A DNA stretch of 64,000 nucleotides from Candidatus Venteria ishoeyi. Its GTDB lineage: Bacteria > Pseudomonadota > Gammaproteobacteria > Beggiatoales > Beggiatoaceae. The position numbers and the translations under genes are program-made. The notes below the pieces were generated by a model. It did no database searches and was not told the DNA's origin. It saw nothing but the letters and a program-made list of their open reading frames with translations. The stretch covers positions 1 to 64,000 of the forward strand of contig NZ_JAUCGJ010000015.1 of the NCBI RefSeq assembly GCF_030378065.1, written 5' to 3'. Positions 829 through 18,438 of this stretch are shown in pieces. The stretch's first letter is position 1. Each line of letters begins with the position of its first letter.

Positions 829-2613
829 ATGAGTATTTTTATTGAAAAAACCCGCATTCGTAATTTTCGTTCTTTACGGCAAGTTGATATCACTCTCTCA
901 CCTAATGTCACGCTTTTGGTTGGTGCCAATAATGCCGGAAAAACCACATTCTTACGCGCCTTAGGCATTGCCCTGAATGCTGATCGTCGCTTTATCAGTC
1001 AAGACGACTTGTTTATTGATAAAGATGGAAATGCTCTCGGTGAGGATGAAAGGGCTATTTGGATTGATGTAAAAATCGTTCCTGCTGATGGTCGTAGTGA
1101 GTTTGACGATTTGTGGCTTGATGCATTTGGAGTTGACGCAAAGATAGATGCAAGTGGTCAGCAGTTTTTCGCATTCAGAACGCAGATAGAATTTGGTGTA
1201 CTCAACAAACAAGCGCAAATAAAACGCTATGTTATTAACACTTGGGAATCTAATTCCGCTGACGAAAACTCGGAAGTCTCTGCGAACTTATCAGGTATTC
1301 CATTTCATTTTATTGATGCGCAACGGGATTTAAATGAAGACGTGCATCAGCGTACTTCTCACTTCGGCAGTTTAACCGGCAAAATTGAATATGATCAGGC
1401 TCAGCGAAGAGCCTTGGAAAATGCGCTTGCGCAGCTTAATGAAGATGCGGTTGCCAGAAGTGCAGTTTTATTGCATTTGCGCACTTCCTTGGCCGAACTC
1501 AATAAAACGGTGCAGGAAAGAGGACGCGGGGTTGAAATTACCCCGTTTCCAAAAAAAGTACGCGATTTACACAAAGGCATGAAAGTGCATTTTCAAGATG
1601 GTGGATCAGATACCTTCAGCCTTGAATATCACGGTATGGGTACGCGCAGTTGGGCATCTTTGCTGGCATTCAAAGCTAAAGTCAGTTGGGATTCTGCTGA
1701 AAAACAGGAAGAAAATGAACCATTTTTCCCTATTTTGGGTTTAGAGGAACCTGAAGCGCATTTGCATCCTAATGCACAGCGCCAGGTTTACCGGCAACTT
1801 GCGGAAATTAGCGGACAGAAAATTATCAGCACACATTCGCCTTATATTGCGGCGTTGGCGGATTTGTCTGAAATACGACATTTTTACAAAGCATCAGATA
1901 TAACTGTATTAAATAGAATTGATACTGCAGCATTAAACACTGATGAGCGTAGAAAGTTAAAACGAGAAGTGCTTCAAAGTAATGGAGAGTTACTCTTTTC
2001 AAAAGCAATTATCTTATTTGAAGGGGAAACGGAATCACAGGCTTTACCAATATTTGCAAAAAAATATTGGAATATGGATCCATTTGAAATGGGATTAACT
2101 TTTATTGCTGTCAATGGTAATAACTATAAGCCATTTTTATTGCTGGCAAGCGCTTTCAATGTTCCGTGGTTTATTTTTAGTGACTATGATAAAACTGGTA
2201 TAAAGAGAGGGGTTGATAACGCACTTTCTGATATTGGTTTGGATTCTGCAATGCCCCACTCAAATGCAGTAAAACTAAATATGTCGATAGAAGATTACCT
2301 CATCTCAGAGTCATATCAGTCTCAACTGAAAGCAGGTATTAATGCGTGGTACGCAGTTACAACAGCACCGGATACCGATCAGAGGCAAATAGACGCTGGA
2401 GTTACAAAAATAAACAGTTATACGGATGAAAAATTGTTACGTGACATATCCTCTGATAATGGCAAAGTTCGATATCCTTCTTTTTGGGCTAAAGAAATCA
2501 TAAAGTTATCTGATGATCGTGCTATCCCTCCAAAAATACGAGACCTTTTCAACGCAATCAGCACAACAACACTTCATCCAATACAAGAGCAAATATCCAA
2601 TGATGCTATCTGA
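829..2613 (+). CDS. gajA: Gabija-type GajA: OLD-like ATPase/TOPRIM endonuclease
   Basis: The 594-residue protein begins with an ABC/SMC-like ATPase: Walker A GANNAGKTT at residues 32-40 (Lys38), and a Walker B region LEEPEAHLHP near 305-314 typical of OLD/RecF ATPases. The C-terminal TOPRIM domain has its acidic residues in FEGETES (Glu398) and SDYDKTG (Asp452, Asp454), with a downstream conserved Lys region (FWAKEI). Length matches GajA (~580). In Gabija, GajA is a sequence-specific DNA nicking endonuclease restrained by nucleotides and activated when phage processes deplete them (established for the Bacillus cereus system). The stop overlaps the helicase gene by 14 bases, which supports a coupled defence pair. 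A lone OLD nuclease is the alternative, but the helicase neighbour argues against it. Confidence 0.85.
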   Translation: MSIFIEKTRIRNFRSLRQVDITLSPNVTLLVGANNAGKTTFLRALGIALNADRRFISQDDLFIDKDGNALGEDERAIWIDVKIVPADGRSEFDDLWLDAFGVDAKIDASGQQFFAFRTQIEFGVLNKQAQIKRYVINTWESNSADENSEVSANLSGIPFHFIDAQRDLNEDVHQRTSHFGSLTGKIEYDQAQRRALENALAQLNEDAVARSAVLLHLRTSLAELNKTVQERGRGVEITPFPKKVRDLHKGMKVHFQDGGSDTFSLEYHGMGTRSWASLLAFKAKVSWDSAEKQEENEPFFPILGLEEPEAHLHPNAQRQVYRQLAEISGQKIISTHSPYIAALADLSEIRHFYKASDITVLNRIDTAALNTDERRKLKREVLQSNGELLFSKAIILFEGETESQALPIFAKKYWNMDPFEMGLTFIAVNGNNYKPFLLLASAFNVPWFIFSDYDKTGIKRGVDNALSDIGLDSAMPHSNAVKLNMSIEDYLISESYQSQLKAGINAWYAVTTAPDTDQRQIDAGVTKINSYTDEKLLRDISSDNGKVRYPSFWAKEIIKLSDDRAIPPKIRDLFNAISTTTLHPIQEQISNDAI

Positions 2614-4495
2614 TGAACAGCAATATATTGTTGATACCTGGACTACTGACGGCGGCGCAATGCTTGTATCCGCCTCCGCCGGTAGCGGAAAAACCCGTGT
2701 ATTGAGTGAATCAGTTCGGCGTTTGTTGGACTTTTCGCCGAAAGAAAAATTCCGTATTCTATGCCTGACTTTTACGAATAAGGCTGCGGAAGAAATGCAG
2801 GATCGTCTTAAAATTGTCAAAGGTATAAAGGGCAGGGCATTTATCAATACCATTCATGCGTTTGGTCTGGATGTTATCAAAGCTTATCGGCATGAACTTG
2901 GTTATATTGATATGCCGCATATCGTCGAAAAAGATGCAGACCGTAAAGATATTTTGAAAAAAGTGTTTCTACAAAGTCCTATACTTGAGCCATATTTTAT
3001 GCACCTTGCTGAAAACTCACAGGAAAACAGCTTGGAAGTGCATCAAAAGAAAATACTGACAAATTCTTTGGTATGGATTTCCAATCAGAAAAAAAAACTG
3101 ATTTTCCTTGATGATGATGCAACAGAATACAATGGCTGGAAACAAGAGCACTTTCACTTGTATAAGCTATACAGCCAACACTTACGTAATCAAAACCTGA
3201 TTGAGTTTGATGATATTTTGCTATTGGCCTGGAAGCTTCTTTCCATTCCTTCTGTTGCATCTATTTATCAAAGATTATACCGCTATGTATTAGTCGATGA
3301 AGCGCAAGACTTAAATTTTACCCAGTATCAAATTATAAAAGTTTTATGCGGCGAGAATATTCGCAATATTTTGATGGTAGGTGATGCTAACCAAGCCATT
3401 CATGGTTATGCAGGGGCAAGTAAAGAGTATATGTTTACTGAATTTGTGCTAGATTTTTCCGCCAAACAAGCTAAGATAGAAAAAAATTATCGCTCATCTC
3501 AAACTGTATTAAATATAGCGAATACAATCATAAAATCTACACTAAATGATAGTAAAAATCAGTTTTTTAAAGGCATAGGTGAAATTCATAGCTTTGCAAA
3601 TGAAAATGAAGAAGCACAGTGGATTGTTAACAAAATAACTAAGTTACTTAATTTGAACTCAGGTGAATTTGATGGTTCTGTCACACTAGATAAAATTGCT
3701 GTCCTGGCAAGAAATCGCTTTGTATTTTCAAGTCTTATTAATGTACTAGATAACAGTATTTTATCTTCTAGATATTTACTAAAAAAAGGTACGGATAGCT
3801 TACAACCTGAATCAATATTGATGAAATTTTTTGATTTAGGAATGAGGGTTATATGCAACCCAAAAGGTGATGTTTATCAGCGACAGTTACTTTCATTAGC
3901 TAGACTGGATTTTACTAAAAACAAACATACTACCGGCTTAGAGTTTCTTAAAAAACAAAAACTATCAATATACCCTCAATTGATAAATGCTTGGGAAGCT
4001 ATTGATAAGAGTCATTCAAATTTCCCTAAAGCGCTCGATATGTTGCTTGAAAATCAGAGTGAGATTGACGATAAGGAACGTGAATATGCCCAAAAAGATA
4101 TAGAAGAATGGCGTGCAGCATGGAAAAAATATATCACTAATACTCCTCCCAATACGAGAACTTTGGCTGACTTTCGGCGCTATACCGTGATGGGATTTAA
4201 TAAAACTCATAGCACAACGGAGCAACTTACGCTTGCGACAGTCCATACTTCTAAAGGTCTTGAGTTTGATATTGTCTTTTTAATGGGTATGACTGAGGGT
4301 ACATTTCCTGACTATCGCGCAAAAACCCAACAGGCGCTGGATGAAGAAAAAAATAATGCTTATGTAGCTGTCACAAGAGCAAAACGGCATATATATATCA
4401 CGTATCCTCGGCAAAAAAGAATGCCTTGGGATGCTGATCATGTACAAAAGAAATCTAGATTTATTTGTAAATTATATGAATCTAAGCACGAATAA
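2600..4495 (+). CDS. gajB: Gabija-type GajB: UvrD/Rep-like SF1 helicase
   Basis: I take ATG 2600 (or 2603, two Met codons in a row) because the UvrD Q-motif LSDEQQYIV follows immediately; a start further upstream at 2513 would read through the end of the nuclease gene. The 631-residue product has Walker A SASAGSGKT, motif Ia FTNKAAEEM, the DEAQD Walker B, motif III DANQAIHGYAG, motif V TVHTSKGLEFD and motif VI NNAYVAVTRAKR, so all SF1A motifs are intact. In Gabija, GajB senses DNA ends produced during phage attack and works in complex with GajA. It is longer than the B. cereus protein (~494 residues), with a larger middle region (about 180-520). Overlap with gajA implies co-translation. No further gene follows before the IS element. 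Confidence 0.84.
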   Translation: MMLSDEQQYIVDTWTTDGGAMLVSASAGSGKTRVLSESVRRLLDFSPKEKFRILCLTFTNKAAEEMQDRLKIVKGIKGRAFINTIHAFGLDVIKAYRHELGYIDMPHIVEKDADRKDILKKVFLQSPILEPYFMHLAENSQENSLEVHQKKILTNSLVWISNQKKKLIFLDDDATEYNGWKQEHFHLYKLYSQHLRNQNLIEFDDILLLAWKLLSIPSVASIYQRLYRYVLVDEAQDLNFTQYQIIKVLCGENIRNILMVGDANQAIHGYAGASKEYMFTEFVLDFSAKQAKIEKNYRSSQTVLNIANTIIKSTLNDSKNQFFKGIGEIHSFANENEEAQWIVNKITKLLNLNSGEFDGSVTLDKIAVLARNRFVFSSLINVLDNSILSSRYLLKKGTDSLQPESILMKFFDLGMRVICNPKGDVYQRQLLSLARLDFTKNKHTTGLEFLKKQKLSIYPQLINAWEAIDKSHSNFPKALDMLLENQSEIDDKEREYAQKDIEEWRAAWKKYITNTPPNTRTLADFRRYTVMGFNKTHSTTEQLTLATVHTSKGLEFDIVFLMGMTEGTFPDYRAKTQQALDEEKNNAYVAVTRAKRHIYITYPRQKRMPWDADHVQKKSRFICKLYESKHE

Positions 4496-4553: not shown

Positions 4554-5959
4554 TTACTGAACTGAAAACTCCGAAAAACTATTCTGAGATACCAACATAC
4601 GCTTGCATCTCGGAATAAAGCTCATCAGAAATATGATGTTGCTCTCTGAATTTATGAATTTATTGACACTTTCTGCTATCAGCAGCTTTTTCAAACCTTG
4701 AAGAAAAAAGTAACGTGTAACCTTTCCTTTACCACCGCCTAAATCGCAAATCATTATAATCGTAGCGTTTTTTGTTAGTTCAGAGTCTATTTCATAAAAG
4801 TATCCGCCCACAAAAAAGCAGATGGCTATGATGTTCTTTATCGATTCCCAATCTCTGACTTGAAATTCTTCCCAGCCAAGCACCTCCTTCAAAAATTTGA
4901 AGACTGACTCAATCTTGCTGCGCAGCAAATAAATACGATAAATTTCTTGTGCTTCTAGATAAGAGTTGACCTCAATGGTCGTCATCAACAGCATCGGTTC
5001 TTTGTATAATTTTGAGCCATCTCTCTTATATAGCGTGGCACGGATGGTCGTATAATTATGACCATTTAGGTTGATTTTATCCCATTCTATTAGACACTTA
5101 GCATTTTGATAGCATTTGCCTTTTAAGGTAAGCTTGTTGATTAGATACACTTTCTGATTGGCAAACGTACTGTTGATTAATTTGATATGGACTTTTCGCC
5201 CCGTGTCTGGATTGATTTTCGCCTGGTTGGAATTGCGGCTTTTTTTAACGCGCACAACCGCATCATCACCCAGTTTGTCTTTGACGAACTCTAAGTATTC
5301 AATGCTGTCAACCGCTCTATCATGAACGTGGCAAAGCGATATATCAGGGGATGCTTGCTTAAAGGCTTCACTTTGTTTTTTCAGGTGTTTTTTTAGAATC
5401 ACGCCCATATTGATAAGGCTTTCATCTTCTATTTTTTCCGCTATTTCAGCTTTTCTTATCGGGTTTTTGATATTGTCTTTGTGATAATCCTCCAGCTCCT
5501 TTTTGCAGATAAAATCATCATCTTTATTGCTGAAAACACTGATGTTAGACAGTGTCAGATTCTTTTTGCGCTCATCTAAAATCACGCTATTTAACGTGGT
5601 ATAACCGTTAACTATCTTGCCATCCAAGGTTCGAACTTTGCCCTGGTTTTCCTGCTTTGAAGCATGAGGTTTGCGAATATCACAATGGTCACTAAAAATA
5701 TACAAGCGACTGTTATTACATAGCTTTTCAACGCTATTTTTAATCAAGGCATTGGATATTTTTTCATCATCTAAAACCAATTTTAAAGAATTATCTATCA
5801 ACTTTTTACTTCTCTCAAACTCACGTTTGTCATCACTAATTTGCCATAATTTTATCGTCTTGTTTTCAACAATTTTTTTAAAAGGTTTTCAGCTTTTTTT
5901 ACGACTCTTGTGTCAATAAAACAGCTAGTTACCTTGTTGATATATCCTGTTAATGTCAT
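4554..5959 (-). CDS. IS4-family DDE transposase, two frames joined by a -1 shift
   Basis: The long frame (5801-4554, 415 residues) has the IS4 signature: a first catalytic Asp in SDHCDIRKPH, a second in HDRAVDS, and the C-terminal YREK box Y-x2-R-x3-E-x6-K in YLLRSKIESVFKFLK. Upstream, an ATG at 5959 with a fair SD (AGGGA) starts an N-terminal frame that stops after 35 codons. The coding continues in the -1 frame after a run of seven A (complement of 5873-5879), arranged exactly as A AAA AAA in the zero frame. Joining them gives about 468 residues, normal for the family. It may be programmed frameshifting or a simple mutation. The last residues are encoded by the terminal repeat and the stop lies just outside the element. 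Confidence 0.8.
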
Positions 5960-6342: not shown

Positions 6343-6996
6343 TTAGTAACAGTAATTGCGATAAGCTGTGCAGATGGTTTGCTGTTCATGCCAAAAAAAT
6401 ACACCTTCTAAATATTCAGGGCATTGATACTGAGTTATTTTTTGTTTGAGCAAACGCAAAGCGGTTGCTGCCACCAGCGAGTCGTGGGTAACAAAGACAT
6501 GAATTCCTGCTTCAGTCCCTGTAATATTCAGCATATGCTGCACCAACAAGTGCGCTGCAAATGCTGGGTTTTCCATACCGGACAATACTTGCTCACTATT
6601 TACTAGGAATAGCATCATGCTTTCATGTCCTTGTTCTTGCCAATGCTGTCCAGCTTGTTGATCATCTAAAACATATACTCCTGGATCACCCAGCAATCGA
6701 TCTGGAAAAATATTTATTTCAACACCGCTACCTTCGCGTAAGGCTTCGGATGTTTGTATACAACGCAACAAAGGACTGGAATGCAGTGTTTTTAGGCGTG
6801 AACTCAATTGCTTACCAAGTTCAATTGCTAGTTTTCTACCTTCAGGAATGATGGGTACATGATAGCAACTTTCATTAAGAGGTAAAGGTTCACGTACTGA
6901 ATGCCTTAATAAGAGTGCAACCGGGCGATCAGCAGGTACTTTTTTTAGCCAGAGCAAAGTACTTGTTGGGATTCGCCAATGTGAATCGGTTCTCAT
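6343..6996 (-). CDS. Histidine phosphatase (phosphoglycerate mutase-like) superfamily protein
   Basis: The 217-residue protein has the family's N-terminal phosphohistidine motif as LLLRHSVRE (Arg31-His32) and the second catalytic His in FVTHDSL near residue 167. The middle contains HSSPLLRCIQTSEAL, the conserved S-x-L-x-R-x-x-Q-T element. There is no signal peptide, so it should be cytosolic. Such enzymes remove phosphate from sugars, nucleotides, small molecules or proteins; substrate cannot be read from sequence. It is the last gene of a six-gene minus-strand operon and overlaps the methyltransferase gene by 4 bases (ATGA), so it probably acts on a phosphorylated intermediate or by-product of that pathway (inference). 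Confidence 0.8.
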   Translation of the reverse strand: MRTDSHWRIPTSTLLWLKKVPADRPVALLLRHSVREPLPLNESCYHVPIIPEGRKLAIELGKQLSSRLKTLHSSPLLRCIQTSEALREGSGVEINIFPDRLLGDPGVYVLDDQQAGQHWQEQGHESMMLFLVNSEQVLSGMENPAFAAHLLVQHMLNITGTEAGIHVFVTHDSLVAATALRLLKQKITQYQCPEYLEGVFFWHEQQTICTAYRNYCY

Positions 6997-8663
6997 TCTG
7001 CCTCCCCTACTATCACACTGGGTAAAGCATTGAGCTTATGTACGGCTGATAGCTTGAAATTAGCTTGTGCTAACAAATCCTTATAGCCAGATAAGCTACG
7101 TTCTCGCCCACCTGTAGCCATCAATAAATGTAAATCACATAAACCTCCTGCTGAATTATCTTCGGGCAATAACATCTCTACAATAAATACCTGTCCACCA
7201 GAACATAATGCTGTATGTGTACGTTGTAAAATATGTAGCGCATCGCTATCATCCCAATCATGTAAAACACGCGCTAATATCACTGCATCAGCGTCGGTTT
7301 CCCAATCAGAAAATAAGTCTTTTTCTAAATAGCTTAGGTGGGGATTTGACGGTATCTGTAGTTTAGCCTGAGCAATGACTTCAGGACGCTCCAGCAAAGT
7401 AACATGCATATCTGGATAGGTTTGTAATAAGTTATTCGTCAACACCCCTAGACCACCACCAGCATCAATAACATTTTCATTACCTTGTAAGCTCAATACA
7501 GTGAGCACTTCAGAATAATCATGTTGTGCATAGCTTGACAGCATTTGATGGTGGCGTTCTCGGCGTTGTTTATCATTTGCTACATTGGCAAAAATCATTG
7601 GTTTTTGCCATTGCCCATCACACTTTAATGCTTCAGATAAACTCATCCACATGGATGTAAAAGCACCTGCATACTCTTGTGCTGCGCCTGCCAATGTTAA
7701 CGGATGTTTAGTTTGTAAATATTGACCACGTTCAGTGCAATACCAGGTATCTGTGTCTTGCTGTACTAAAGCTAATTCAGCCAAGGCTCGTAATAAACGC
7801 TGACTGCGCTCAACAGTTAGCCTACAATTATTAGCAATAATTTCAGTATTTGCTGGTAAGTTATCAAGTACACCTAATTCCACTGCGGAAGCAATGGTTT
7901 GAGTACGCCAAAAGCCAACCATATCTGCCGACAATTCAGCAAATTCACTGCGTAGAGCAGGTCTGAGTTGAACCAAGGTTTTACCTGTTTCATCAATTAG
8001 TTCTAAAGCACCGTTAAAGCACTCAACTCGTGCTTGCCCATTGTAGAAAGGTTCGACGGCGGTAAATCGATGTTTATAAATTGGTTTACCCTGTTGGTTA
8101 ATATGCATCCAGCCCGCCTCATCTCTAGCGCGAGCAAAGCCTTTGTGAAAGACATCTAAATCTAAAAACCAAACTTGATGTAGGTATTCACCTTGTGTAT
8201 TGATGTGGGTAGAATAGCCATTATCTGCCTGCACAACGGCAATATCCGTGCGAAAATCCCCTGCATAGCACCAACGCTGTGCATAAGCCTCTTTGCCATT
8301 AGGCTGAATATGCCAATACTCACCAGCGGTATTGCGCACACTACACCGCCTGCCCTGAAAATTGCCACACCAAGCATAGTTTTGTGGAGAAATAGCCGTA
8401 CCTGTGGAATCAATATGATACCAGCCATCAACGGCAATAACTGCTGCCAAGCCTTCATAAAAGCCAAAGGTGCGCTGGAAATGCTGTGGGTAAGCGGCTT
8501 TACCGTCCGGGTGGATATGCCAGGCTTTATCATTTAAGCTCACAGCGGCAAGCCCCGGTGGATGAAAAGCCAGCACTTCGCTAAAGCGTTGCTCGTAGGC
8601 CGGAGTGTTTTGCCGTAGATGATGAGTATTATCAGGTGCGGGCTGTAATTTTTGCCAACTCAT
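6993..8663 (-). CDS. WG-repeat/SAM-dependent O-methyltransferase fusion
   Basis: Residues ~25-230 consist of about six WG-type repeats of ~40 residues, each with a G-x-A-x-V strand and a W/H-x-HI-x-x-x-G turn (for example WHIHPDGK, WYHIDSTG, WHIQPNGK, WMHINQQGK). Residues ~240-556 are a class I methyltransferase of the hydroxyneurosporene/COMT type: a winged dimerisation domain (GFWRTQTIASAVELGVLD), SAM motif I VIDAGGGLGVL, acidic motif LLERPEV, and ARVLHDWDD. The catalytic-base region has HDW as in O-methyltransferases. The start ATG 8663 overlaps the radical SAM stop by 4 bases. A beta-propeller-like WG module fused to a methyltransferase suggests the repeats bind the substrate or a partner protein. 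Product unknown. Confidence 0.82.
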   Translation of the reverse strand: MSWQKLQPAPDNTHHLRQNTPAYEQRFSEVLAFHPPGLAAVSLNDKAWHIHPDGKAAYPQHFQRTFGFYEGLAAVIAVDGWYHIDSTGTAISPQNYAWCGNFQGRRCSVRNTAGEYWHIQPNGKEAYAQRWCYAGDFRTDIAVVQADNGYSTHINTQGEYLHQVWFLDLDVFHKGFARARDEAGWMHINQQGKPIYKHRFTAVEPFYNGQARVECFNGALELIDETGKTLVQLRPALRSEFAELSADMVGFWRTQTIASAVELGVLDNLPANTEIIANNCRLTVERSQRLLRALAELALVQQDTDTWYCTERGQYLQTKHPLTLAGAAQEYAGAFTSMWMSLSEALKCDGQWQKPMIFANVANDKQRRERHHQMLSSYAQHDYSEVLTVLSLQGNENVIDAGGGLGVLTNNLLQTYPDMHVTLLERPEVIAQAKLQIPSNPHLSYLEKDLFSDWETDADAVILARVLHDWDDSDALHILQRTHTALCSGGQVFIVEMLLPEDNSAGGLCDLHLLMATGGRERSLSGYKDLLAQANFKLSAVHKLNALPSVIVGEAE

Positions 8664-9703
8664 TGGCTCTCCTTAGGCTTACGCATATTACAAGCAATAC
8701 ACAATGGTTGTTGCTGGTAATTTTGCTGCAAAACTTGGTAAGCCTCGCTGTACCAGATGGCGGCCAAGCTTTGTTCATGCAAATTGCCAAAATTGCCTAA
8801 GCTACGCCGCTGTATATCTGGAGCACAGCAGGGATCAAAACGCCCTTGAGTATTGATCCAGGCTTCTTGTCCTAAAAATGGACATTCACCATCGAGCATC
8901 AGGTTTTGTGTTGCTTTGACTTCTAAGGGGTAAATGTTTTCCAGTAAAACTTTTTTTCCATTTGGCAAGCGGTCTGTTTCAGCAATAGTTTGCGCTTGTT
9001 CAACGACTTGATTCCAACGCTCTATCGCCTCTGCGTTACGGCGCAGAGATAGTGGCTCAATTGCTGAAAAATGCGCCCATAGGTGATGACCTTTCACCCG
9101 ATCCACACCTAATTGTGCTGCCAGCTTGATGATGTCGGGCAATTCTGCCAGATTCGATTCTAAAAAGGTCAACTGAAATGTGATACGGCAATAATCGCCG
9201 CCTTGTGCTGCCTGTTCATTTCTAACTTGGATAAAGTGTTTAAGATTGTTTAAGGCTTTATCCCAACGCGCCCCCAACATAATTTTTTCGTGAGTTTTTG
9301 CTGTTGCACCATTCCAAGAAAATTTTACATCAGAAGTCACTGGTACAATGCGCTGCGCCCAATAGTCCACGCCACCTTTACCATTATGCTTGGGAAAGCT
9401 GCCATTAGTAGTGAGATTGAGTTTAACTTGATACTGCTGACAAAGTTCAAGAATACGTTCAAAATCATCATATAACAGTGGTTCTCCCATAGTTGAAGGA
9501 ATTACCTCGCGCAAGCCTAAAGGTGCTGCTTCAGCAATAATTTTTTCAATCAAGGCAATCGGCATCCGCCGCTTTTGGCTTTGTGTGGTGCGCCGATTGG
9601 GGTTATGTTCTGAATGCTCTTCACACATGACGCAGCGAAAATTACAGTCATCTGGGTTGGTATCAAAGGTGATGCGCCAAGGGCTGGATGCTTGGTTAAT
9701 CAT
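8660..9703 (-). CDS. Radical SAM/SPASM-domain enzyme
   Basis: I use ATG 9703, which overlaps the glycosyltransferase stop by 8 bases and puts the radical SAM motif near the N-terminus; a longer frame from 9745 would overlap far more. The 347-residue protein has C-x3-C-x2-C at Cys20, Cys24, Cys27 (DDCNFRCVMC), a GE motif in STMGEPLL, and a C-terminal SPASM-type region with Cys in GECPF, FDPCCAPD and LCIACNM, which would bind auxiliary Fe-S clusters. SPASM enzymes mostly modify peptides (sactipeptide, PQQ or mycofactocin type), but some act on other substrates. Sitting between a glycosyltransferase and a methyltransferase, with a small conserved protein at the head of the operon, it is the likely core enzyme of the pathway (inference). 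Confidence 0.85.
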   Translation of the reverse strand: MINQASSPWRITFDTNPDDCNFRCVMCEEHSEHNPNRRTTQSQKRRMPIALIEKIIAEAAPLGLREVIPSTMGEPLLYDDFERILELCQQYQVKLNLTTNGSFPKHNGKGGVDYWAQRIVPVTSDVKFSWNGATAKTHEKIMLGARWDKALNNLKHFIQVRNEQAAQGGDYCRITFQLTFLESNLAELPDIIKLAAQLGVDRVKGHHLWAHFSAIEPLSLRRNAEAIERWNQVVEQAQTIAETDRLPNGKKVLLENIYPLEVKATQNLMLDGECPFLGQEAWINTQGRFDPCCAPDIQRRSLGNFGNLHEQSLAAIWYSEAYQVLQQNYQQQPLCIACNMRKPKESQ

Positions 9704-10997
9704 GTTGCAACACTTTGTGGTAAATCGCTTCAATATCCTGTACATGGCTGGCTAAATCGGGAATATTGCCGTCTTTGCTTTGTGCGTAGCCATGTTGTCC
9801 AAGACGCTGCGCCAGTGCGGGATCATCAACAAAAACCTGCATTTGTACTGCCATATCATCAAGATTGCGATGCTCAAAACACAAACCATTGACTTGATGA
9901 TGGACGTATTCACCCATGCCGCCTGCATTCGCGGTAATCACAGGGACTCGTGCTTGTAAGGCTTCATGAATTACCAAGGGCGAGTTCTCCACCCATACAG
10001 AGGGTACAACGATGGCATCTACATGATTAAATACATCTTGTACAATTTCTTGATTACGGTATTCACTACGCCACTCGATGTGCGCGGCTTTATCGGCTGG
10101 CAAAACCTGAGCTAAAGTGCGTAAGGCATCCGTCTCTTGTCCTCGTGCTCTGCCCCAAATGCGTAATTTAGCATCACCATTCACTTTCCCAAACGCTTGA
10201 ATTAACTGATGAATACCTTTGGCGGGGATATGTGTGCCAATATAGCCAAAAGTAAACGGCTCGCCAGATAGTCGCTTGCGTCCCTGCAAACGGCTGACAT
10301 CAAAACCATAATCTAAATAACGTAGTTTACTTTCAGGTAAGCCGAAATCATCACGATAACGGTTATGGAGATAACGTGCAGGTGCAATAAATACATCAAC
10401 TAAATCCACCATTTCGCGTACATGCGCCATGCGTCGCGCCACCCAATCCGTCCAATAATTCACATCTTGCTCATATTCTGCCTCTGCACCAGAAAAATAC
10501 CGTGCATAACAATGCTCAGCGCATTTGCGATCTGCTTGTCCCTCGCAAGCCGCCCATAAATTGTGAGGTTCTTCTGGAAACATTTGCATAAATTGCCCAC
10601 GTGGACACATCAGCCAATAATCATGCAAGGTATAGACTATAGGAATCTGGTGTTGTGCAGCTTGTTTCACTAAGGAAGTAGATAAATGATTAAGATGGCC
10701 AATATGTACGACATCAGGTTTCAAGCTATCGAGTAATTCGGTAAAACGCTGATCTACAATTGTGTGGCGATAACGATCCTTATAATTGGGTAAATTAATG
10801 ATATGTAGCTTAATTTGTGGTTGGTCTGCATCAAATTCTTCACGTAGAGTGTAATCCGGCGCAAAGGCATTTTCTTCACGAGTAAACACATGCACTTCAT
10901 GGTGTTGTGCTAGACCATGACTGAGGGTTTGTGTATAGACTTCAGAACCTGCGTTATAACGCATCGGATAACCATGAATTACTTGTAAAATTTTCAT
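9696..10997 (-). CDS. GT4-family glycosyltransferase
   Basis: The 433-residue protein has the GT-B layout: N-terminal acceptor domain beginning MKILQVIHGYPMRYNAGSEV, with the glycine/serine donor loop, and a C-terminal nucleotide-sugar domain with FTFGYIGTHIPAKGIHQLIQA and the E-x7-E motif ENSPLVIHE, followed by PVITANAGGMGEYV. A Cys-rich insertion (residues ~125-165: CPRG, ACEG, KCAEHC) is typical of a subset of GT4 proteins. No signal peptide or membrane segment is seen, so it acts in the cytosol on nucleotide-sugar donor. It starts in an ATGA overlap with the SDR gene and overlaps the radical SAM start, so the operon is translationally coupled. Acceptor unknown. Confidence 0.85.
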   Translation of the reverse strand: MKILQVIHGYPMRYNAGSEVYTQTLSHGLAQHHEVHVFTREENAFAPDYTLREEFDADQPQIKLHIINLPNYKDRYRHTIVDQRFTELLDSLKPDVVHIGHLNHLSTSLVKQAAQHQIPIVYTLHDYWLMCPRGQFMQMFPEEPHNLWAACEGQADRKCAEHCYARYFSGAEAEYEQDVNYWTDWVARRMAHVREMVDLVDVFIAPARYLHNRYRDDFGLPESKLRYLDYGFDVSRLQGRKRLSGEPFTFGYIGTHIPAKGIHQLIQAFGKVNGDAKLRIWGRARGQETDALRTLAQVLPADKAAHIEWRSEYRNQEIVQDVFNHVDAIVVPSVWVENSPLVIHEALQARVPVITANAGGMGEYVHHQVNGLCFEHRNLDDMAVQMQVFVDDPALAQRLGQHGYAQSKDGNIPDLASHVQDIEAIYHKVLQHD

Positions 10998-11917
10998 GCA
11001 ATGACCTCTGTTGTTGTGATTAATTCAGCCGTAAAATCTGCAATTAACTGTTTTAAGCCTTGCTCGATTGAAATTTGCGCTGACCAATTGAGCAGAGTTT
11101 TTGCACGGGTTGGATTACCATAAAACTTAGCCACATCAAAATTACGCTCTTTAGCTTCATGAATTTGTGATCTGCCTTGGCCTAACTGATTTGCCAGTGT
11201 CGCCAACTGCCCCAAAGTCGTTGCGTTGCCCGTCAACAAATGAATCGGCGGTAAATCCCGTACCCCAGCCTGCAAACGTTGCACAGCCGCCAAAATACCG
11301 CGCACCGTATCGCTGACATGGGTAAAATCAAAGGTATGATTTGTGCCATCGACACGCATTCCTTGCCCTAAAGCGGCTGCGTGAGCAAAAGCTGGAACGA
11401 CCCGATCAGCATGATCCTTTGTACAACCATAGACATTCGACAAGCGCACAATGGCGGTTTGCAAGCCGTGCTGACGCGCTCCCAAAACTGCATTTTCTGC
11501 GTCACGTTTTGCATGAGCATACACATTCATCGGCTGCAACGGCATATCTTCATGCACTGGCAGACTTTCAGGTTGTCCATAAACCTCGCGGCTACTGGAA
11601 AAAATCACCCACGGCGGAGTTGTTTGTTCTTGCGCAACTTGCAGTACATTTCGCATTCCTTGGAAATTAGTCAAACGACACAGTTCAGGAGCTTGCTCGC
11701 CCCAAATCACTCGCGACACAGCAGCGAGATTAATCACTCCAACACAGCCCTGCATTGCCTGACGTAAGGTTTCTATCTGAGTAATATCGCCATAGTTTGC
11801 GTGTGTTTGTGGATAGGTTTTATCAAAAGCAATGACTTGGAAATGATGCTGGGATAATAACGGGGATAGGGTACGACCGATTAAACCCACTGCACCAGTA
11901 ATAAGAATTTTAGACAT
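10994..11917 (-). CDS. NAD-dependent epimerase/dehydratase (extended SDR)
   Basis: Start ATG 11917 is preceded by GGAG with 7-base spacing and leads directly into the Rossmann motif ILITGAVGLIGRTL; the frame runs further upstream (11968) but without SD. The 307-residue product has SSREVYG, the catalytic Y-x3-K in VYAHAKRDAEN, RLSNVYG and a substrate-binding C-terminal domain, all typical of sugar-nucleotide epimerases/dehydratases. It probably makes or modifies the sugar nucleotide used by the next gene, a GT4 glycosyltransferase, whose ATG overlaps its stop. It follows the 91-residue small-protein gene by 65 bases. Exact sugar not readable. Confidence 0.83.
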   Translation of the reverse strand: MSKILITGAVGLIGRTLSPLLSQHHFQVIAFDKTYPQTHANYGDITQIETLRQAMQGCVGVINLAAVSRVIWGEQAPELCRLTNFQGMRNVLQVAQEQTTPPWVIFSSSREVYGQPESLPVHEDMPLQPMNVYAHAKRDAENAVLGARQHGLQTAIVRLSNVYGCTKDHADRVVPAFAHAAALGQGMRVDGTNHTFDFTHVSDTVRGILAAVQRLQAGVRDLPPIHLLTGNATTLGQLATLANQLGQGRSQIHEAKERNFDVAKFYGNPTRAKTLLNWSAQISIEQGLKQLIADFTAELITTTEVIA

Positions 11918-11982
11918 GGATATTCTCCAAAAAAATACCTGCAAGCATTGCTTACAGGTAAATTTCAATCAATCAAAGAAAG

Positions 11983-12258
11983 TTAGTGAGTTTTTTTGTG
12001 GTTAGGATTTAACTGCTTGCCACGATCACCCTGAGCTTGATCGTATTGAGGATTTGTGCCAGGTGTCCCCTTATTGGGATTTTTAATATTGGCTTCATTA
12101 TCTTCAGGTTTTATTTTCTTGCCTGCTTCGATAATGTAAGGAATATCTTGGATTGGTGGCATTTCTTCATATCCGCGACTTTTCCAATAAGCGGTGTGGC
12201 AGGGATTGAGTTGATTAGCGTGATTATCTCGCGCAGATTGGTCAGTTAAATGACTCAT
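11983..12258 (-). CDS. Small conserved protein with NHANQLNP motif, head of modification operon
   Basis: ATG 12258 is preceded by GGAG at 8-base spacing; the frame extends to 12303 without a better start. The 91-residue product is hydrophilic and has two related motifs: DNHANQLNPCH at 11-21 and KQLNPNH at 81-87, near the two ends. Its single Cys (Cys20) lies in the first motif, followed by AYWKSRGYEE. The middle is Pro/Asn/Lys rich and looks disordered. I recall short uncharacterised proteobacterial proteins with N-H-A-N-Q-x-N-P-N-N and S-R-G motifs, but no function. Its place at the head of an operon with radical SAM, methyltransferase and glycosyltransferase genes makes it a candidate peptide substrate (RiPP-like), or a regulatory/chaperone protein. 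Confidence 0.7.
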   Translation of the reverse strand: MSHLTDQSARDNHANQLNPCHTAYWKSRGYEEMPPIQDIPYIIEAGKKIKPEDNEANIKNPNKGTPGTNPQYDQAQGDRGKQLNPNHKKTH

Positions 12259-12639: not shown

Positions 12640-13113
12640 ATGCCTCATTATATCCGCATGGAACAACCGGGCGGCTGTTATTTTTTTACCATTGTCACTT
12701 ATCGGCAGCGATGCTTTTTGACTGATGAACTGGCACGGCATTTTCTGCATGAGGCGATTATCAAAATCCGGCAAAACCACTCTTTTGAAATTGATGCCTG
12801 GGTGTTGCTGCCGGATTATTTGCATTGCATCTGGACACTGCTAGAAGGCGATGATGATTATTCTATCTGTTGGAATGTCATCAAAATCTTGTTCACCCGC
12901 CGTGCAATACCGCATTATCACAATATCGAATGGATGAATGCATCAAAAATCAAACACTGCAAATCAACGCTTTGGCAACGTCGCTTCTGGGGGCGCATCA
13001 TCTACGATGACCGCGACTATACTAACCACGTCGATTACATCCATTACAATCCCATCAAACGCGGCTGGGCCGAACATCCTCGCGATTGGTCATATTCTAC
13101 CTATCATTGTTAA
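12640..13113 (+). CDS. REP-associated tyrosine transposase (RAYT), HUH motif altered
   Basis: The 157-residue protein matches RAYT/Y1 transposases along its length: PGGCYFFTIVTYRQRCFLTDE at the N-terminus, the metal-binding strand WVLLPDYLHCIWTL near 50-63, LWQRRFW, and the catalytic Tyr region HVDYIHYNPIKRG. The usual metal motif is H-U-H in PDHVH; here the first His is Tyr (TAT instead of CAT), which should weaken or abolish nicking. The C-terminus stops soon after WSYSTYH, ~15-20 residues shorter than typical, and the middle is also short. I therefore think it is probably inactive. REP-like palindromes lie just upstream. It converges with a truncated nitrilase gene. Confidence 0.8.
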   Translation: MPHYIRMEQPGGCYFFTIVTYRQRCFLTDELARHFLHEAIIKIRQNHSFEIDAWVLLPDYLHCIWTLLEGDDDYSICWNVIKILFTRRAIPHYHNIEWMNASKIKHCKSTLWQRRFWGRIIYDDRDYTNHVDYIHYNPIKRGWAEHPRDWSYSTYHC

Positions 13114-13137: not shown

Positions 13138-13464
13138 CTAATGCAGCAGCACTTTTGCATTTTTATCAATAAGCACGGCACTGTTGTACATCGCTTCCCC
13201 GTCCCGTTCCGGCCAACCGGTGACAATTGCTATGGCATACTTTTGCGCAATGTTCTGTAATTGCAAAATAGATGCGCCATGAACTGGCTCAGATAGTGTA
13301 TGGAAGGTTCGGGCATCCAGATGATAACCACTGATAAAAAGTTCTGCAGTAATCAGCATATCAGCGCCTTGCTGTGCTGCGTGACTGGCATATTTTTCAA
13401 TGTATTCCAGGTTACGCTGTTTTTCGCCTGGAAACCCATTTGATTGCAGTATGGCTATTTTCAT
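13138..13464 (-). pseudogene. N-terminal fragment of a nitrilase/carbon-nitrogen hydrolase
   Basis: From ATG 13464 the frame gives ~108 residues beginning MKIAILQSNGFPGEKQRNLE and including the catalytic Glu strand ITAELFISGY, as in nitrilase-superfamily amidases. It ends at VLIDKNAKVLLH, exactly where the family continues with the lysine (YRKTH) and the catalytic Cys region. About 160 residues are missing, including catalytic Lys and Cys, so it cannot be active. The break point is 24 bases from the end of the RAYT gene, which suggests that insertion or deletion at that element removed the 3' part. Confidence 0.75.
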
Positions 13465-13583
13465 TTTAAATATCCCGTTCTTCAACATCTGCGCAGGCAT
13501 ATAAGCTTGCCCCGGATACTGCGATTTCCACCTGCTCCTGAACTACAGTATATAATAACGCCTAACAATAGCGGCTTAACGGT

Positions 13584-14427: not shown

Positions 14428-17400
14428 TTATTGACAAGCCTCACATTCTGGATCATCAATGGAACACGCCGCCGGTAGTGGCGCAGAATTATCCAGATTG
14501 AGCATGTCGCTGGCATTCACCATATTAGCCTCAGTCGCTTGCACGGTGTTTTTCTCAACCTGGGTTGCGCCCATGCTACGCAGATAATAGGTGGTTTTCA
14601 GGCCGCGCAGCCAAGCGTGTTTGTATAACTCATCCAGACGTTTACCGGAAGGCTCGCGCATGTAGAGATTCAGTGATTGTGATTGATCCAGCCATTTCTG
14701 ACGGCGCGCACCGGCATCAATCAACCATTTGGGATCGATTTCAAAGGCGGTGGCGTACAAGGCTTTAATCGCTTCCGGGATGCGCTCAATATCCTGTACG
14801 CTGCCATCAAAATATTTCAGGTCATTAACCATCATTTCATCCCATAAATCCAGGGCTTTGAGATCGGCAACCAGATACGGATTGACTACGGTAAACTCGC
14901 CGGAAAGGTTGGATTTCACATACAGGTTCTGGAATGTGGGTTCGATGGATTGCGTCACGCCGGAGACGTTGGAAATGGTTGCAGTCGGTGCAATCGCCAT
15001 GCAGTTAGAGTTACGCATACCGTTGGTTTGTACCTGCTGACGCAGGCTGTCCCAGTCCAGGGTTTGTTTGTCGTCCAGTTCCAGATATTCGCCACGGCTT
15101 TCAGCCAGCGCCTGCAAACTGTCAATGGGCAATATGCCCTGACTCCATAAAGAACCATCAAAAGTCGCGTATTTGCCGCGCTCTTCCGCCAGCAGCGTGG
15201 AACCCAGTATGGCGTGATAACTGATAGCTTCCATCGCCTTATCGGCAAACTCCACGGCGGCATCTGAGGCGTAGGCAATGCGTTGTTTGTATAAGGCATC
15301 CTGGAAACCCATCAAGCCCAGGCCCACCGGGCGGTGGCGCAGATTGGAGCGACGCGCCTGCGGCACTGAATAGTAGTTAATATCAATCACATTATCCAGC
15401 ATCCGCATCGCAGTTTTCAGGGTACGCGCCAGTTTTTCCATATCCAGCCCGTTTTCCGTGGTATGCGCAGGCAGATTAACGCTCATCAGGTTGCACACGG
15501 CGATTTCTTCTTCCGAAGTATTTAAAGCGATCTCTGTACACAAGTTAGAGGAATGCACCACACCCACATGCTGTTGCGGCGAGCGAATGTTACAGGGGTC
15601 TTTGAAAGTCATCCAGGGATGCCCGGTTTCAAATAACATGGTGAGCATTTTGCGCCACAGTTGTACGGCGGACACTTTTTTGTACTGGCGCAGTTTGCCC
15701 AGCGCGGCCTGTTCTTCATATTCGTGATAGCGCTGCTCAAAGGCTGCACCGAATAACTCATGTAAATCCGGGGTTTCATCGGGTGAGAACAAGGTCCATT
15801 CCGCTTCCTGATGTACCCGTTTCATGAATAAATCCGGCACCCAGTTGGCGGTGTTCATGTCATGGGTGCGGCGGCGCTCGTCACCCGTGTTTTTACGCAG
15901 TTCCAGGAATTCTTCAATATCCAGATGCCAGGTTTCCAGATAGGCGCAGCCGGAACCCAGGCGCTTACCACCGTTGTGCGCCAGGGCAGATGTAGTCATA
16001 TAAGACTCATCACCTTCCACTTTTAAGTCATACACAAAAGGCAAGGGGGCAATGCTGCTTACTGAACGAATACGGGTGAATAGCCAGCCTTTCCAACTCA
16101 GCCAGTTTTGTTTGCTCAGTGCTTGACAGCCCACGCGCCTGGCAATTTCAGGGATGGCAGGAATGCGCAAGTCATAGGCTTTGCACACGCCTTTAAATTC
16201 AATTTGAGTGCCGTCGGCGCGTTGTCCGGTATGATCCTGCTCACGCTCACGATATTGCCCAGCACAAGGTACGCCCAGGCGTAATAATTGATAACGCAGT
16301 CCTTCAATCAGTGCCTGCGAGGTGTTGGTAAAATAAATTTCCTTGCCGCGACTAATACCACCGTCGGTTTCAATCAAGCCTTGTAGCAAAGCCAGGGTCT
16401 GATTTTTGGGTAAATGCGCGTATTGACGCGCAATGCGTTTATGACCATCAGCGTCATAAAGGTCTTCACGTTTGAAAATAAAACCGGTTGCGTTGCCACG
16501 GGCAAATTGTCCCGTTGTGGCATCGCGCACCAGTTCACAGCCCTGCGCCCAACTGATTTGCAGATAATTTTCGCGCTGGCCTTTCTCCCAGAAATGTATG
16601 CCCTGGTTTTGCAAATAATCACGCACAAACTGTAAATGCACGTCTTGATTAGGGTTGCCACACACGCCCCATTCCATGCCGTCCTGCGTACAGTGACCAT
16701 CGCCTAACAAAATACCGTACAAACGCGCTTCATCTTCATCAAAATCCGCAACCGGCACCACTTCTTTAGGAATCACCTGGGCCACATAATCGCCTTTTTG
16801 CAGGGTTCCGGCATCCTGCCATTGTGGTGTAATTTTGCCTTTTTGCAGCCATTCATAACTGCGCTGATTGGCTTGTTCCATTGGTACGCCGGAGAGTGTC
16901 CACAGTGGGTGTCCACTGGTCACGCGCAATGGGGAAATTGCATGTTTTACCTCAATTTCCACCATAGGATCGGTTTGGTTATACGCCATGCGTTGCTGCA
17001 CTTCACGATAAGCACCGTGCTGACCCAATACCAGATCCCCTTTTTCTATGTCTTTGATGGCTTTCACGCCCTCACTGGTGTGCAGCAAGGTATCCGGGGC
17101 AAAACACTGGTTTACCGCCACCAGCGTATCATTCGCCACTTTCATAAACGGCACGATGCCCTGAGACTTGCCGTTGGTGCCTTTAATCCATGCACCCATT
17201 GCGCGCACGGGTGTCCAGTCATTACCCAGACCTCCGGCAAATTTAGACAATAATGCATTATCACGAATGGCAGAATAAATACCATGTAAATCATCCGGCA
17301 CGGTGCTGAGATAACAACTGGACAACTGTGAACGCAAAGTACCGGCATTAAACAAGGTTGGCGTGCTGGACATGCAGTCAAAGCTGGAAAGCAGGTTATA

Positions 17401-18438
17401 AAACTCAATAGCACGGGCTTCACGGTCGATTTCGTTGAGGCTCAGGCCCATCGCCACGCGCATGAAAAAGGCTTGCGGCAGTTCAAAACGCACTTCACCC
17501 CAATGCAGGAAATAACGGTCATACAGGGTCTGGAAACCCAGATAAGTAAACTGGAAATCACGCTGTGGCTGAATCGCTGCCGCCAGACGCTCCAAATCAA
17601 ATTCTGTCAGGGTGGGGGAGAGCAATTCATAATCCACCCCGGCCTGGATATAACGTTTGAAATATTCAGTATACAGTTCAGCCATTTGCGTGGCATTAGC
17701 TGTGGTGGGCATGTGTTGCGCGCCATCACGACTGTTAATCAAGCCCAGGGTTTCCGAGCGCAGGGTATCGAGTAATAAACGTGCCGCGACATAAGTATAA
17801 TTTGGCTCTTTTTCAATCAGCATACGCGCCGTCATCACCAACACGCGATTAACTTCTTCGGCGGGAATACCGTCATACAGGTTTTTCAGGCTGTCCGCCA
17901 CCACCAGTTCGGGATCAACATCATCCAGATCGGCACAGGATTCCGCCACCAGTTCATACAAGCGGGTTTCATCCAGCGGATGCAAGTTGCCATTGTGATC
18001 GGTGACGTTCAAGGCACTGGTGCGACCTGGACGGGTGGCGCGCTGGGCGGCGTGCTGCTCGCGGTATAAGACATAATCACGCGCAACTTTATGCTCGCCA
18101 GCGCGCATCAGTTCCAGTTCTACCTGATCCTGAATATCCTCAATATGCACCGTGCCATTAAATTCCATGCGCCGACTGAGGCTGTTAATGACATTTTTAA
18201 CCAGTTCTTCCGCGCTGTGATGAATCCGCTCGGGTGCCTGATCCGGGCGATCACCACCATGACCTTCAACAGCGATAAAGGCTTTGGTAATGGCAATGGC
18301 AATACGCGCCGGATCAAAGGGGGCTAATTGACCATTGCGTTTAATAACGCGGTATTGCGCGTAGCGGGTAGCATCCAGGGTGGGATCCAGGTCGCTGGTT
18401 AAGGTGGCGGTGGGGGTAGAAACATTTTCCGGTTTCAT
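14428..18438 (-). CDS. nrdA: Class I ribonucleoside-diphosphate reductase alpha subunit, intein-containing precursor
   Basis: The 1336-residue precursor consists of ~958 residues of extein and a 378-residue intein (445-822). The extein starts with an ATP-cone (YRVIKRNGQLAPFDPARI, ~30-130) and a second cone-like region (~140-230), followed by the barrel: SSCY (Cys375), NLCTEIALN with the thiyl-radical Cys, AVCNLMS, SNCMAIAPTATISN and the radical-transfer pair YY (1284-1285). The C-terminal tail has Cys1325, Cys1332 and Cys1335 for reduction by thioredoxin/glutaredoxin. The enzyme makes dNDPs and needs a NrdB partner, which is not in this window. No recognisable NrdR box was found upstream. Whether activity depends on splicing is uncertain because the intein +1 residue is Gly. 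Confidence 0.92.
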   Translation of the reverse strand: MKPENVSTPTATLTSDLDPTLDATRYAQYRVIKRNGQLAPFDPARIAIAITKAFIAVEGHGGDRPDQAPERIHHSAEELVKNVINSLSRRMEFNGTVHIEDIQDQVELELMRAGEHKVARDYVLYREQHAAQRATRPGRTSALNVTDHNGNLHPLDETRLYELVAESCADLDDVDPELVVADSLKNLYDGIPAEEVNRVLVMTARMLIEKEPNYTYVAARLLLDTLRSETLGLINSRDGAQHMPTTANATQMAELYTEYFKRYIQAGVDYELLSPTLTEFDLERLAAAIQPQRDFQFTYLGFQTLYDRYFLHWGEVRFELPQAFFMRVAMGLSLNEIDREARAIEFYNLLSSFDCMSSTPTLFNAGTLRSQLSSCYLSTVPDDLHGIYSAIRDNALLSKFAGGLGNDWTPVRAMGAWIKGTNGKSQGIVPFMKVANDTLVAVNQCFAPDTLLHTSEGVKAIKDIEKGDLVLGQHGAYREVQQRMAYNQTDPMVEIEVKHAISPLRVTSGHPLWTLSGVPMEQANQRSYEWLQKGKITPQWQDAGTLQKGDYVAQVIPKEVVPVADFDEDEARLYGILLGDGHCTQDGMEWGVCGNPNQDVHLQFVRDYLQNQGIHFWEKGQRENYLQISWAQGCELVRDATTGQFARGNATGFIFKREDLYDADGHKRIARQYAHLPKNQTLALLQGLIETDGGISRGKEIYFTNTSQALIEGLRYQLLRLGVPCAGQYREREQDHTGQRADGTQIEFKGVCKAYDLRIPAIPEIARRVGCQALSKQNWLSWKGWLFTRIRSVSSIAPLPFVYDLKVEGDESYMTTSALAHNGGKRLGSGCAYLETWHLDIEEFLELRKNTGDERRRTHDMNTANWVPDLFMKRVHQEAEWTLFSPDETPDLHELFGAAFEQRYHEYEEQAALGKLRQYKKVSAVQLWRKMLTMLFETGHPWMTFKDPCNIRSPQQHVGVVHSSNLCTEIALNTSEEEIAVCNLMSVNLPAHTTENGLDMEKLARTLKTAMRMLDNVIDINYYSVPQARRSNLRHRPVGLGLMGFQDALYKQRIAYASDAAVEFADKAMEAISYHAILGSTLLAEERGKYATFDGSLWSQGILPIDSLQALAESRGEYLELDDKQTLDWDSLRQQVQTNGMRNSNCMAIAPTATISNVSGVTQSIEPTFQNLYVKSNLSGEFTVVNPYLVADLKALDLWDEMMVNDLKYFDGSVQDIERIPEAIKALYATAFEIDPKWLIDAGARRQKWLDQSQSLNLYMREPSGKRLDELYKHAWLRGLKTTYYLRSMGATQVEKNTVQATEANMVNASDMLNLDNSAPLPAACSIDDPECEACQ
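15973..17106 (-). other. LAGLIDADG intein inside nrdA (378 aa)
   Basis: The insertion splits the conserved extein sequence AVNQ/GGKR. It starts with Cys445 (CFAPDTLLHT, block A), has block B VTSGHPLW, two LAGLIDADG endonuclease motifs (LYGILLGDGH and LLQGLIETDGG), and ends with block F VYDLKVEG and block G ALAHN (His821-Asn822). This is a class 1 layout with a probably intact homing endonuclease. The residue after Asn is Gly, and not Cys/Ser/Thr, both here and in uninterrupted NrdA proteins, so the usual transesterification nucleophile is absent. Confidence 0.88.

Follow-up and report, generated by a model that had tools for sequence, protein, structure and literature searches.

What does the gene set at positions 6343-12258 of a 64,000-nucleotide stretch of Candidatus Venteria ishoeyi (contig NZ_JAUCGJ010000015.1; the whole stretch is called the window here) make, and does it belong to a system that is already described? 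An initial annotation, made from the letters alone, listed six minus-strand genes joined by short overlaps and held that the set matches nothing known. The gene structure was borne out in full: a check of the open reading frames (ORFs) of the window recovered all six with the same coordinates, strand and overlaps, and Pfam confirmed the domains. The claim of novelty fails, because the set corresponds to the UC2-UC4 core of the Undecim Cluster of Wolbachia phage WO, which is already published. As judged by sequence comparison, this homology is secure. The locus contains the following features.

11983-12258, minus strand: 91-amino-acid (aa) QLNP protein, low-complexity, a doubtful operon member
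11960-11936, minus strand: terminator-like hairpin between the QLNP gene and the SDR gene (11 pairs, 3-base loop, T7 tail)
10994-11917, minus strand: SDR-family NAD-dependent sugar-nucleotide epimerase/dehydratase (Pfam Epimerase, 1.8e-40), homologue of WD0612/UC2
9696-10997, minus strand: GT4 glycosyltransferase (Pfam Glyco_transf_4 and Glycos_transf_1), homologue of the N-terminal half of WD0613/UC3
8660-9703, minus strand: radical SAM/SPASM enzyme (Pfam Radical_SAM, 4.9e-12; SPASM, 2.7e-10), homologue of the C-terminal half of UC3
6993-8663, minus strand: fusion of a WG-repeat domain (residues 1-240; WG_beta_rep, 2.2e-9) with an O-methyltransferase (Methyltransf_2, 1.4e-35), homologue of WD0614/UC4
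6343-6996, minus strand: histidine phosphatase, branch 1 (His_Phos_1, 1.4e-6), with the RH, SSPLLR and THD motifs kept

From the SDR gene to the phosphatase gene, successive genes overlap by 4, 8, 4 and 4 bases; the SDR start is most likely the ATG at 11917 and the radical SAM start most likely 9703. By this anatomy, the SDR, GT4, radical SAM, WG-methyltransferase and phosphatase genes clearly form a single transcriptional unit. The 91-aa gene lies 65 bases from the SDR gene, and its co-transcription with that gene is doubtful because the hairpin and its T run separate the two. The earlier view that six genes work together is therefore upheld for the five overlapping genes and is doubtful for the 91-aa gene. 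Since only about 18 bases lie between the hairpin and the SDR start, transcription of the operon would either read through the hairpin or begin at a promoter that lies within the hairpin or further upstream. The GC content of the cassette (44.1%) is on a level with the window mean (45.3%), so composition gives no mark of foreign origin.

Searching phage records by tblastn with the GT4 and radical SAM proteins returned Wolbachia phage WO, and searching plasmids with the radical SAM protein returned three Arsenophonus plasmids (CP132908, CP132904 and CP132902). Phage WO (MN180251) encodes, in order, a GlmU-like protein, an SDR, a GT4-radical SAM fusion, a WG-methyltransferase, a PhyH protein, an ABC transporter and two threonine aldolases. 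The SDR, the fusion and the WG-methyltransferase (WD0612-WD0614, or UC2-UC4) are homologous to the window genes, which are contiguous and stand in the same order as in the UC2-UC4 core. Identity to phage WO is 40% for the SDR, 48.6% for GT4, 52.5% for the radical SAM enzyme and 44% for the WG half; identity to Arsenophonus is 41% for the SDR and, at the highest values outside the family, 57% for GT4 and 56% for the radical SAM enzyme. Across both comparisons the WG half is 44-45% identical, whereas the methyltransferase half is only 23-30% identical. The GT4 protein matches UC3 over its full length (48.6%, E 1e-144), compared with a partial match of 28% (E 6e-14) to the best other glycosyltransferase of its own genome, and neither the radical SAM enzyme nor the WG-methyltransferase has another match in that genome at E 1e-3.

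The window operon and the phage WO cluster thus have the UC2-UC4 activities, their order and the WG/KWG-methyltransferase fusion in common, but they are not the same cluster. UC1 (GlmU-like), UC5 (PhyH), UC6 (ABC exporter) and UC7/UC8 (threonine aldolases) are part of the Undecim Cluster, and none of UC1, UC5, UC6, UC7 and UC8 gave a tblastn match in the window. GT4 and radical SAM are two separate genes with an 8-base overlap, unlike the fused gene of the full Undecim Cluster, and the window has an additional histidine phosphatase. The Arsenophonus plasmid cluster resembles the window in having an SDR, separate GT4 and radical SAM genes and a 558-aa WG-methyltransferase; it differs in continuing with PhyH, SHMT-family and threonine aldolase genes, with no phosphatase annotated, and it sits beside panB/panC/panE on a small plasmid. 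PHROG 21308, a family of GT4-radical SAM fusions, matches both the window GT4 (6.8e-137) and the window radical SAM enzyme (3.3e-69), although its members are one fused protein and are annotated just as "radical SAM domain-containing".

Much of this background is in print. The Undecim Cluster of phage WO, including WD0612-WD0614, is described in earlier work, as are its counterparts on rickettsial plasmids (PMC9203015, PMC4701759). One of these papers (PMC4701759) also reports that the KWG domain is fused to a methyltransferase, and names free-living bacteria that may have syntenic homologues: Desulfovibrio, Haliangium, Capnocytophaga and Saprospira. The cluster is highly expressed (PMC4683655), has been transferred among Wolbachia, Rickettsia and Cardinium and duplicated in an obligate Wolbachia strain (PMC12801941, PMC9203015), and its functions have been called unknown (PMC12801941). 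We took the aminoglycoside-type cluster of Rickettsia buchneri (PMC8770908) as a lead only.

What is new here is a compact version of the uncharacterised Undecim core that carries a phosphatase. The window cassette points to the chemical core of the eleven Undecim genes: GT4, radical SAM and WG, usually with an SDR and a methyltransferase. Wolbachia is hard to manipulate. In its compact free-living form, the core has a phosphatase and lacks the half devoted to transport and amino acids; it is a small enzyme set open to expression and assay, and it offers a simpler place to learn what the phage WO gene island makes.

We searched for further cassettes with the WG-methyltransferase and radical SAM proteins as queries. 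The gene set was found in five other genomes of the family, and three scans of IMG/VR gave two cassette contigs and one weak WG match.

G031: SDR-GT4-radical SAM-WG/methyltransferase (86, 86, 86 and 70-75% identity to the window)
G025: SDR-GT4, a nucleotidyltransferase/tyrosine-phosphatase (Y_phosphatase3) fusion, a NodU/CmcH-type carbamoyltransferase, radical SAM-WG/methyltransferase
G019: SDR-GT4-radical SAM-WG, histidine phosphatase, UvrA-like protein
G032: GT4-radical SAM-WG, methyltransferase frame broken
G784: GT4-radical SAM-WG/methyltransferase-histidine phosphatase
L049 (IMG/VR): fused GT4-radical SAM and a WG domain only
L050 prophage (IMG/VR): RtcR-type regulator, two small ORFs, GT4, radical SAM, tyrosine-phosphatase-family protein (Y_phosphatase3), methyltransferase, WG

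The L050 prophage has a GH108 endolysin at one flank and a Bacteroidota-type integrase at the opposite flank. Within Beggiatoaceae, the radical SAM profile matched 6 of 43 genomes, each from another genus; in a sample of the phylum it matched the window's own genome alone (1 of 398). A wider scan of genome contigs for the WG-methyltransferase gave just two actinobacterial methyltransferase matches. Each of the ten lineages examined retains GT4, radical SAM and WG, the invariant core; the first two form one polypeptide in phage WO, L049 and PHROG 21308. The initial annotation had named, as possible support for a system, a recurrent gene neighbourhood that would include the 91-aa protein. The gene set does recur, with conserved order and in distant bacteria, but the 91-aa protein is absent from most cassettes.

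The spread of the cassette is best explained by horizontal transfer, because its identities do not follow those of PrfC, its distribution is patchy and its tree groups distant hosts together. The housekeeping protein PrfC of the window genome is 80% identical to that of G031, 76% to G025, 77% to G032 and 75% to G019. For the cassette, identity is 85% to G031, above the PrfC level, falls to 36-41% for G025, G032 and G019, and is 55-58% to Arsenophonus and L049. In a concatenated GT4 and radical SAM tree, in which some inner nodes are weak, G019, G025 and G032 stand apart, and the window and G031 group with L049, Arsenophonus and phage WO.

The SDR has the YxxxK motif as YAHAK, and four cysteines of GT4 (C131, C151, C159 and C163) are invariant in 10 of 10 homologues. 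In the radical SAM enzyme, the CX3CX2C motif, C274, C292/C293, C335 and C338 are invariant in nine homologues, and the C274-x17-C292 spacing plus the CX2C at 335-338 would fit an auxiliary cluster of SPASM/twitch-like type. As modelled by AlphaFold (pLDDT 71), the enzyme is closest to BlsE (Z 19.7), PqqE (19.2), SuiB (19.0) and DesII (18.4), which comprise two sugar-acting and two peptide-acting enzymes. The model of the WG part (pLDDT 86) is a beta-propeller-like ring with propeller-like fold matches, consistent with a binding scaffold. An enzymatic role for the WG domain was rejected, as the fold search returned only generic beta-propellers (BamB and designed propellers). The other half of the protein belongs by Pfam to Methyltransf_2, a small-molecule O-methyltransferase family.

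Together, these data lead us to propose a horizontally transferred, UC2-UC4-homologous biosynthetic operon that makes a small O-methylated sugar conjugate, a reading that we regard as evenly poised. The SDR would make or reshape a nucleotide sugar, and GT4 would move the sugar onto an acceptor. The radical SAM/SPASM enzyme may then modify the glycoside at an unactivated carbon, by epimerisation, oxidation or dehydration. The Methyltransf_2 domain would cap a hydroxyl, with the WG propeller as a putative binding scaffold, and the phosphatase would take a phosphate off an intermediate or the product. Our confidence is moderate in three predictions: the reactions, their order, and a product that is a small O-methylated sugar conjugate and not a polymer.

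Several observations bear on individual steps. GT4 and the radical SAM enzyme probably act in succession on one substrate, because they are fused in the phage WO, L049 and PHROG 21308 proteins. The histidine phosphatase is common to the window, G019 and G784 cassettes and in the same position, and a non-homologous phosphatase, Y_phosphatase3, occurs in L050 and, fused to a nucleotidyltransferase domain, in G025. Because such gene sets contain phosphatases with one or the other of two unrelated folds, phosphate removal seems to be required, whichever enzyme performs it. NodU/TobZ-type carbamoyltransferases act on sugars, and carbamoylation is a typical sugar tailoring. Taken together, the GT4-radical SAM fusion, the Methyltransf_2 family, the recurrent phosphatases and the G025 carbamoyltransferase favour a methylated, sometimes carbamoylated sugar conjugate. 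The operon has a single glycosyltransferase and nothing that resembles a flippase or polymerase gene. The first suggestion, that one product undergoes glycosylation, methylation and radical chemistry, appears right in kind; the idea that this product is a peptide is weak.

The enzyme classes of the operon also recall the tunicamycin/tunicaminyluracil clusters (TunA-TunH), which likewise combine an SDR, a radical SAM enzyme, a glycosyltransferase and a histidine phosphatase. The tunicamycin gene list includes the acyltransferase TunC, the deacetylase TunE and the pyrophosphatase TunH (PMC6965331). A tunicamycin-like pathway was rejected, since equivalents of all three are missing from the five-gene operon by Pfam and the SDR matches TunA (3vps) at 54 bits, behind numerous ordinary epimerases, the best of which reaches 77 bits.

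A number of findings weigh against the sugar-conjugate proposal. The radical SAM fold search leaves sugar-acting and peptide-acting enzymes nearly tied and does not separate them. An SDR is missing in L050, G784 and L049 and none was seen in G032; the methyltransferase is missing in G019 and L049, and the phosphatase in G031 and phage WO. The full five-step scheme is therefore not universal. The genes are also compatible with a surface glycan as acceptor.

That last point leads to the strongest alternative, in which the operon decorates lipopolysaccharide or exopolysaccharide with an unusual methylated sugar. Such roles were predicted from annotation by the phage WO authors (PMC9203015, PMC4701759). 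The cassette has a prophage location in L050, L049 and phage WO, and many prophage-borne glycosyltransferases modify surface glycans. Yet no core cassette has a flippase, polymerase, ligase or membrane-embedded transferase, and no flippase, polymerase or ligase was found among the operon proteins or the inspected immediate neighbours of the cassettes. Wolbachia, moreover, carries the cluster but reportedly makes no cell wall (PMC4701759). We consider this alternative unlikely, though not far-fetched. An improbable one is that the product is a peptide, with the QLNP protein or short Gly/Asn-rich upstream peptides being glycosylated, radically modified and methylated. It draws on L050, where two small ORFs, one QLNP-like and one GGWPATTGN-like, lie directly upstream of GT4. 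The first, 45 aa long and just upstream of GT4, is 71% identical over 35 aa to the C-terminal part of the QLNP protein; the second, which follows it, is Gly-rich, and its GGWPATTGN core is found again upstream of the G031 cassette, in an ORF of 46 aa. Both peptide families are rare in these genomes, so coincidence is an unlikely reason for their linkage at three loci. Against this, both families exist without the cassette, and no peptide is common to all cassettes, with candidates in the window, L050 and G031 only and no such ORF found in the others. QLNP-type proteins are absent from the G031, G025, G019, G032, G784, phage WO, Arsenophonus and L049 cassettes. The 91-aa protein has no family match in Pfam, NCBIfam, PADLOC or PHROGs, and no full-length relative was recovered; the C-terminal half makes up a small separate family. 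In relatives, the QLNP motif stands by itself or at the N-terminal end of a larger protein; it is also present on Klebsiella and Vibrio plasmids. The proposal that the 91-aa protein is the modified peptide is accordingly weak: it is absent from most cassettes, it occurs alone, and only its C-terminal half recurs upstream of a cassette (L050). Finally, the radical SAM enzyme falls far under every NCBIfam cut-off for maturases of ribosomally synthesised and post-translationally modified peptides (best TIGR04317, 80.8 versus 380 bits), and a known maturase of this kind was rejected on these grounds. The small peptides are possible accessories rather than demonstrated substrates.

Less probable again is a defence role, in which a modified sugar or nucleotide made by the operon would stop phages from growing, or would act in superinfection exclusion. 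A Gabija system adjoins the operon (829-4495, plus strand; PADLOC, GajA 4.5e-195 and GajB 4.1e-197), Septu PtuA/PtuB adjoins the G784 cassette (positions 5615-7801 of L087, with PtuA split over two frames), the cassette is carried by prophages, and an RtcR-type CARF/AAA regulator lies beside the G031 (2.4e-80) and L050 (3.2e-17) cassettes. However, no PADLOC model fits the cassette proteins, which show only weak pVip (viperin-like) and mad2 similarity; just two IMG/VR contigs carry the cassette; and no sigma-54 promoter stands out beyond the shuffled background. The defence-gene neighbourhood is a lead only, as these genomes may simply contain many genes of this kind. We conclude that the cassette is a real, horizontally mobile biosynthetic module, for which the surface-glycan, peptide-precursor and defence readings are possible but weaker than the sugar conjugate. 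The regulators, of RtcR/PspF type with CARF-AAA-HTH domains and divergent from the cassette, are as follows.

L023, 3395-5194, minus strand: regulator in a gammaproteobacterium
L050, 5290-6198, minus strand: regulator in the Bacteroidota-type prophage, without most of CARF

An RNA-damage regulon acting through RtcR was rejected for the window operon, as no sigma-54 site scored above shuffled sequence and no RtcR-like gene was seen beside it. As a long shot, GT4, radical SAM and WG could constitute a mobile chemical module reduced to its minimum, in some cases controlled by an RtcR-type sensor of RNA damage. It would attach a methylated sugar, radically modified, to a small molecule or to a short disordered peptide as protection of bacteria against phages or competitors, and phage WO would have taken it over for life in insects.

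The Gabija system in the window is complete, with overlapping GajA and GajB genes and a GC content of 38%, below that of the window. Other cassette neighbours are a PDC-S45-like protease gene in G019, and an nSTAND1-WD40 gene plus a DNA methyltransferase in G025. A UvrA-like protein without the N-terminal UvrA part (positions 478-2022 of L026, minus strand) is encoded 15 bases downstream of the G019 histidine phosphatase; it is possibly a self-protection factor, or unrelated.

Both small-peptide families were also seen elsewhere. On the Klebsiella plasmid pmS2H7-GES24, the gene of a QLNP-motif protein (positions 3435-3716 of L078) lies in an integron-like array, flanked by the beta-lactamase genes blaGES-24 and blaOXA-921; given this position between resistance genes, the QLNP family is mobile in its own right. 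Peptides with a GGWPSTTGNPSGGGRxNN core (positions 6519-6656 of L050, 5414-5551 of L023, and L062-L074) occur alone or N-terminally in larger proteins, including on several marine phage contigs, and had no match in the literature. Of the matches from the GGWPSTTGN search, the only one among 369 genomes of the class, as well as some of the viral ones, are chance translations. This peptide was rejected as a dedicated partner, since it is present without the cassette in marine phage contigs.

Elsewhere in the window, a transposase (4554-5801) adjoins the operon, and a truncated carbon-nitrogen hydrolase-like ORF of 120 aa (13138-13500, minus strand), likely a gene remnant, lies beside a REP-associated-type transposase (12640-13113). 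The ribonucleotide reductase gene (14428-18438, minus strand) has an intein-like insert that starts with CFAPDTLLHT, contains LAGLIDADG-like motifs and ends in AHN. The residue after the HN of an intein is usually Cys, Ser or Thr; here it is Gly, and splicing would be unusual if this reading is right. Two signalling proteins (34003-38712 and 41851-44913, plus strand) have nearly identical N-termini, apparently the result of a recent duplication.

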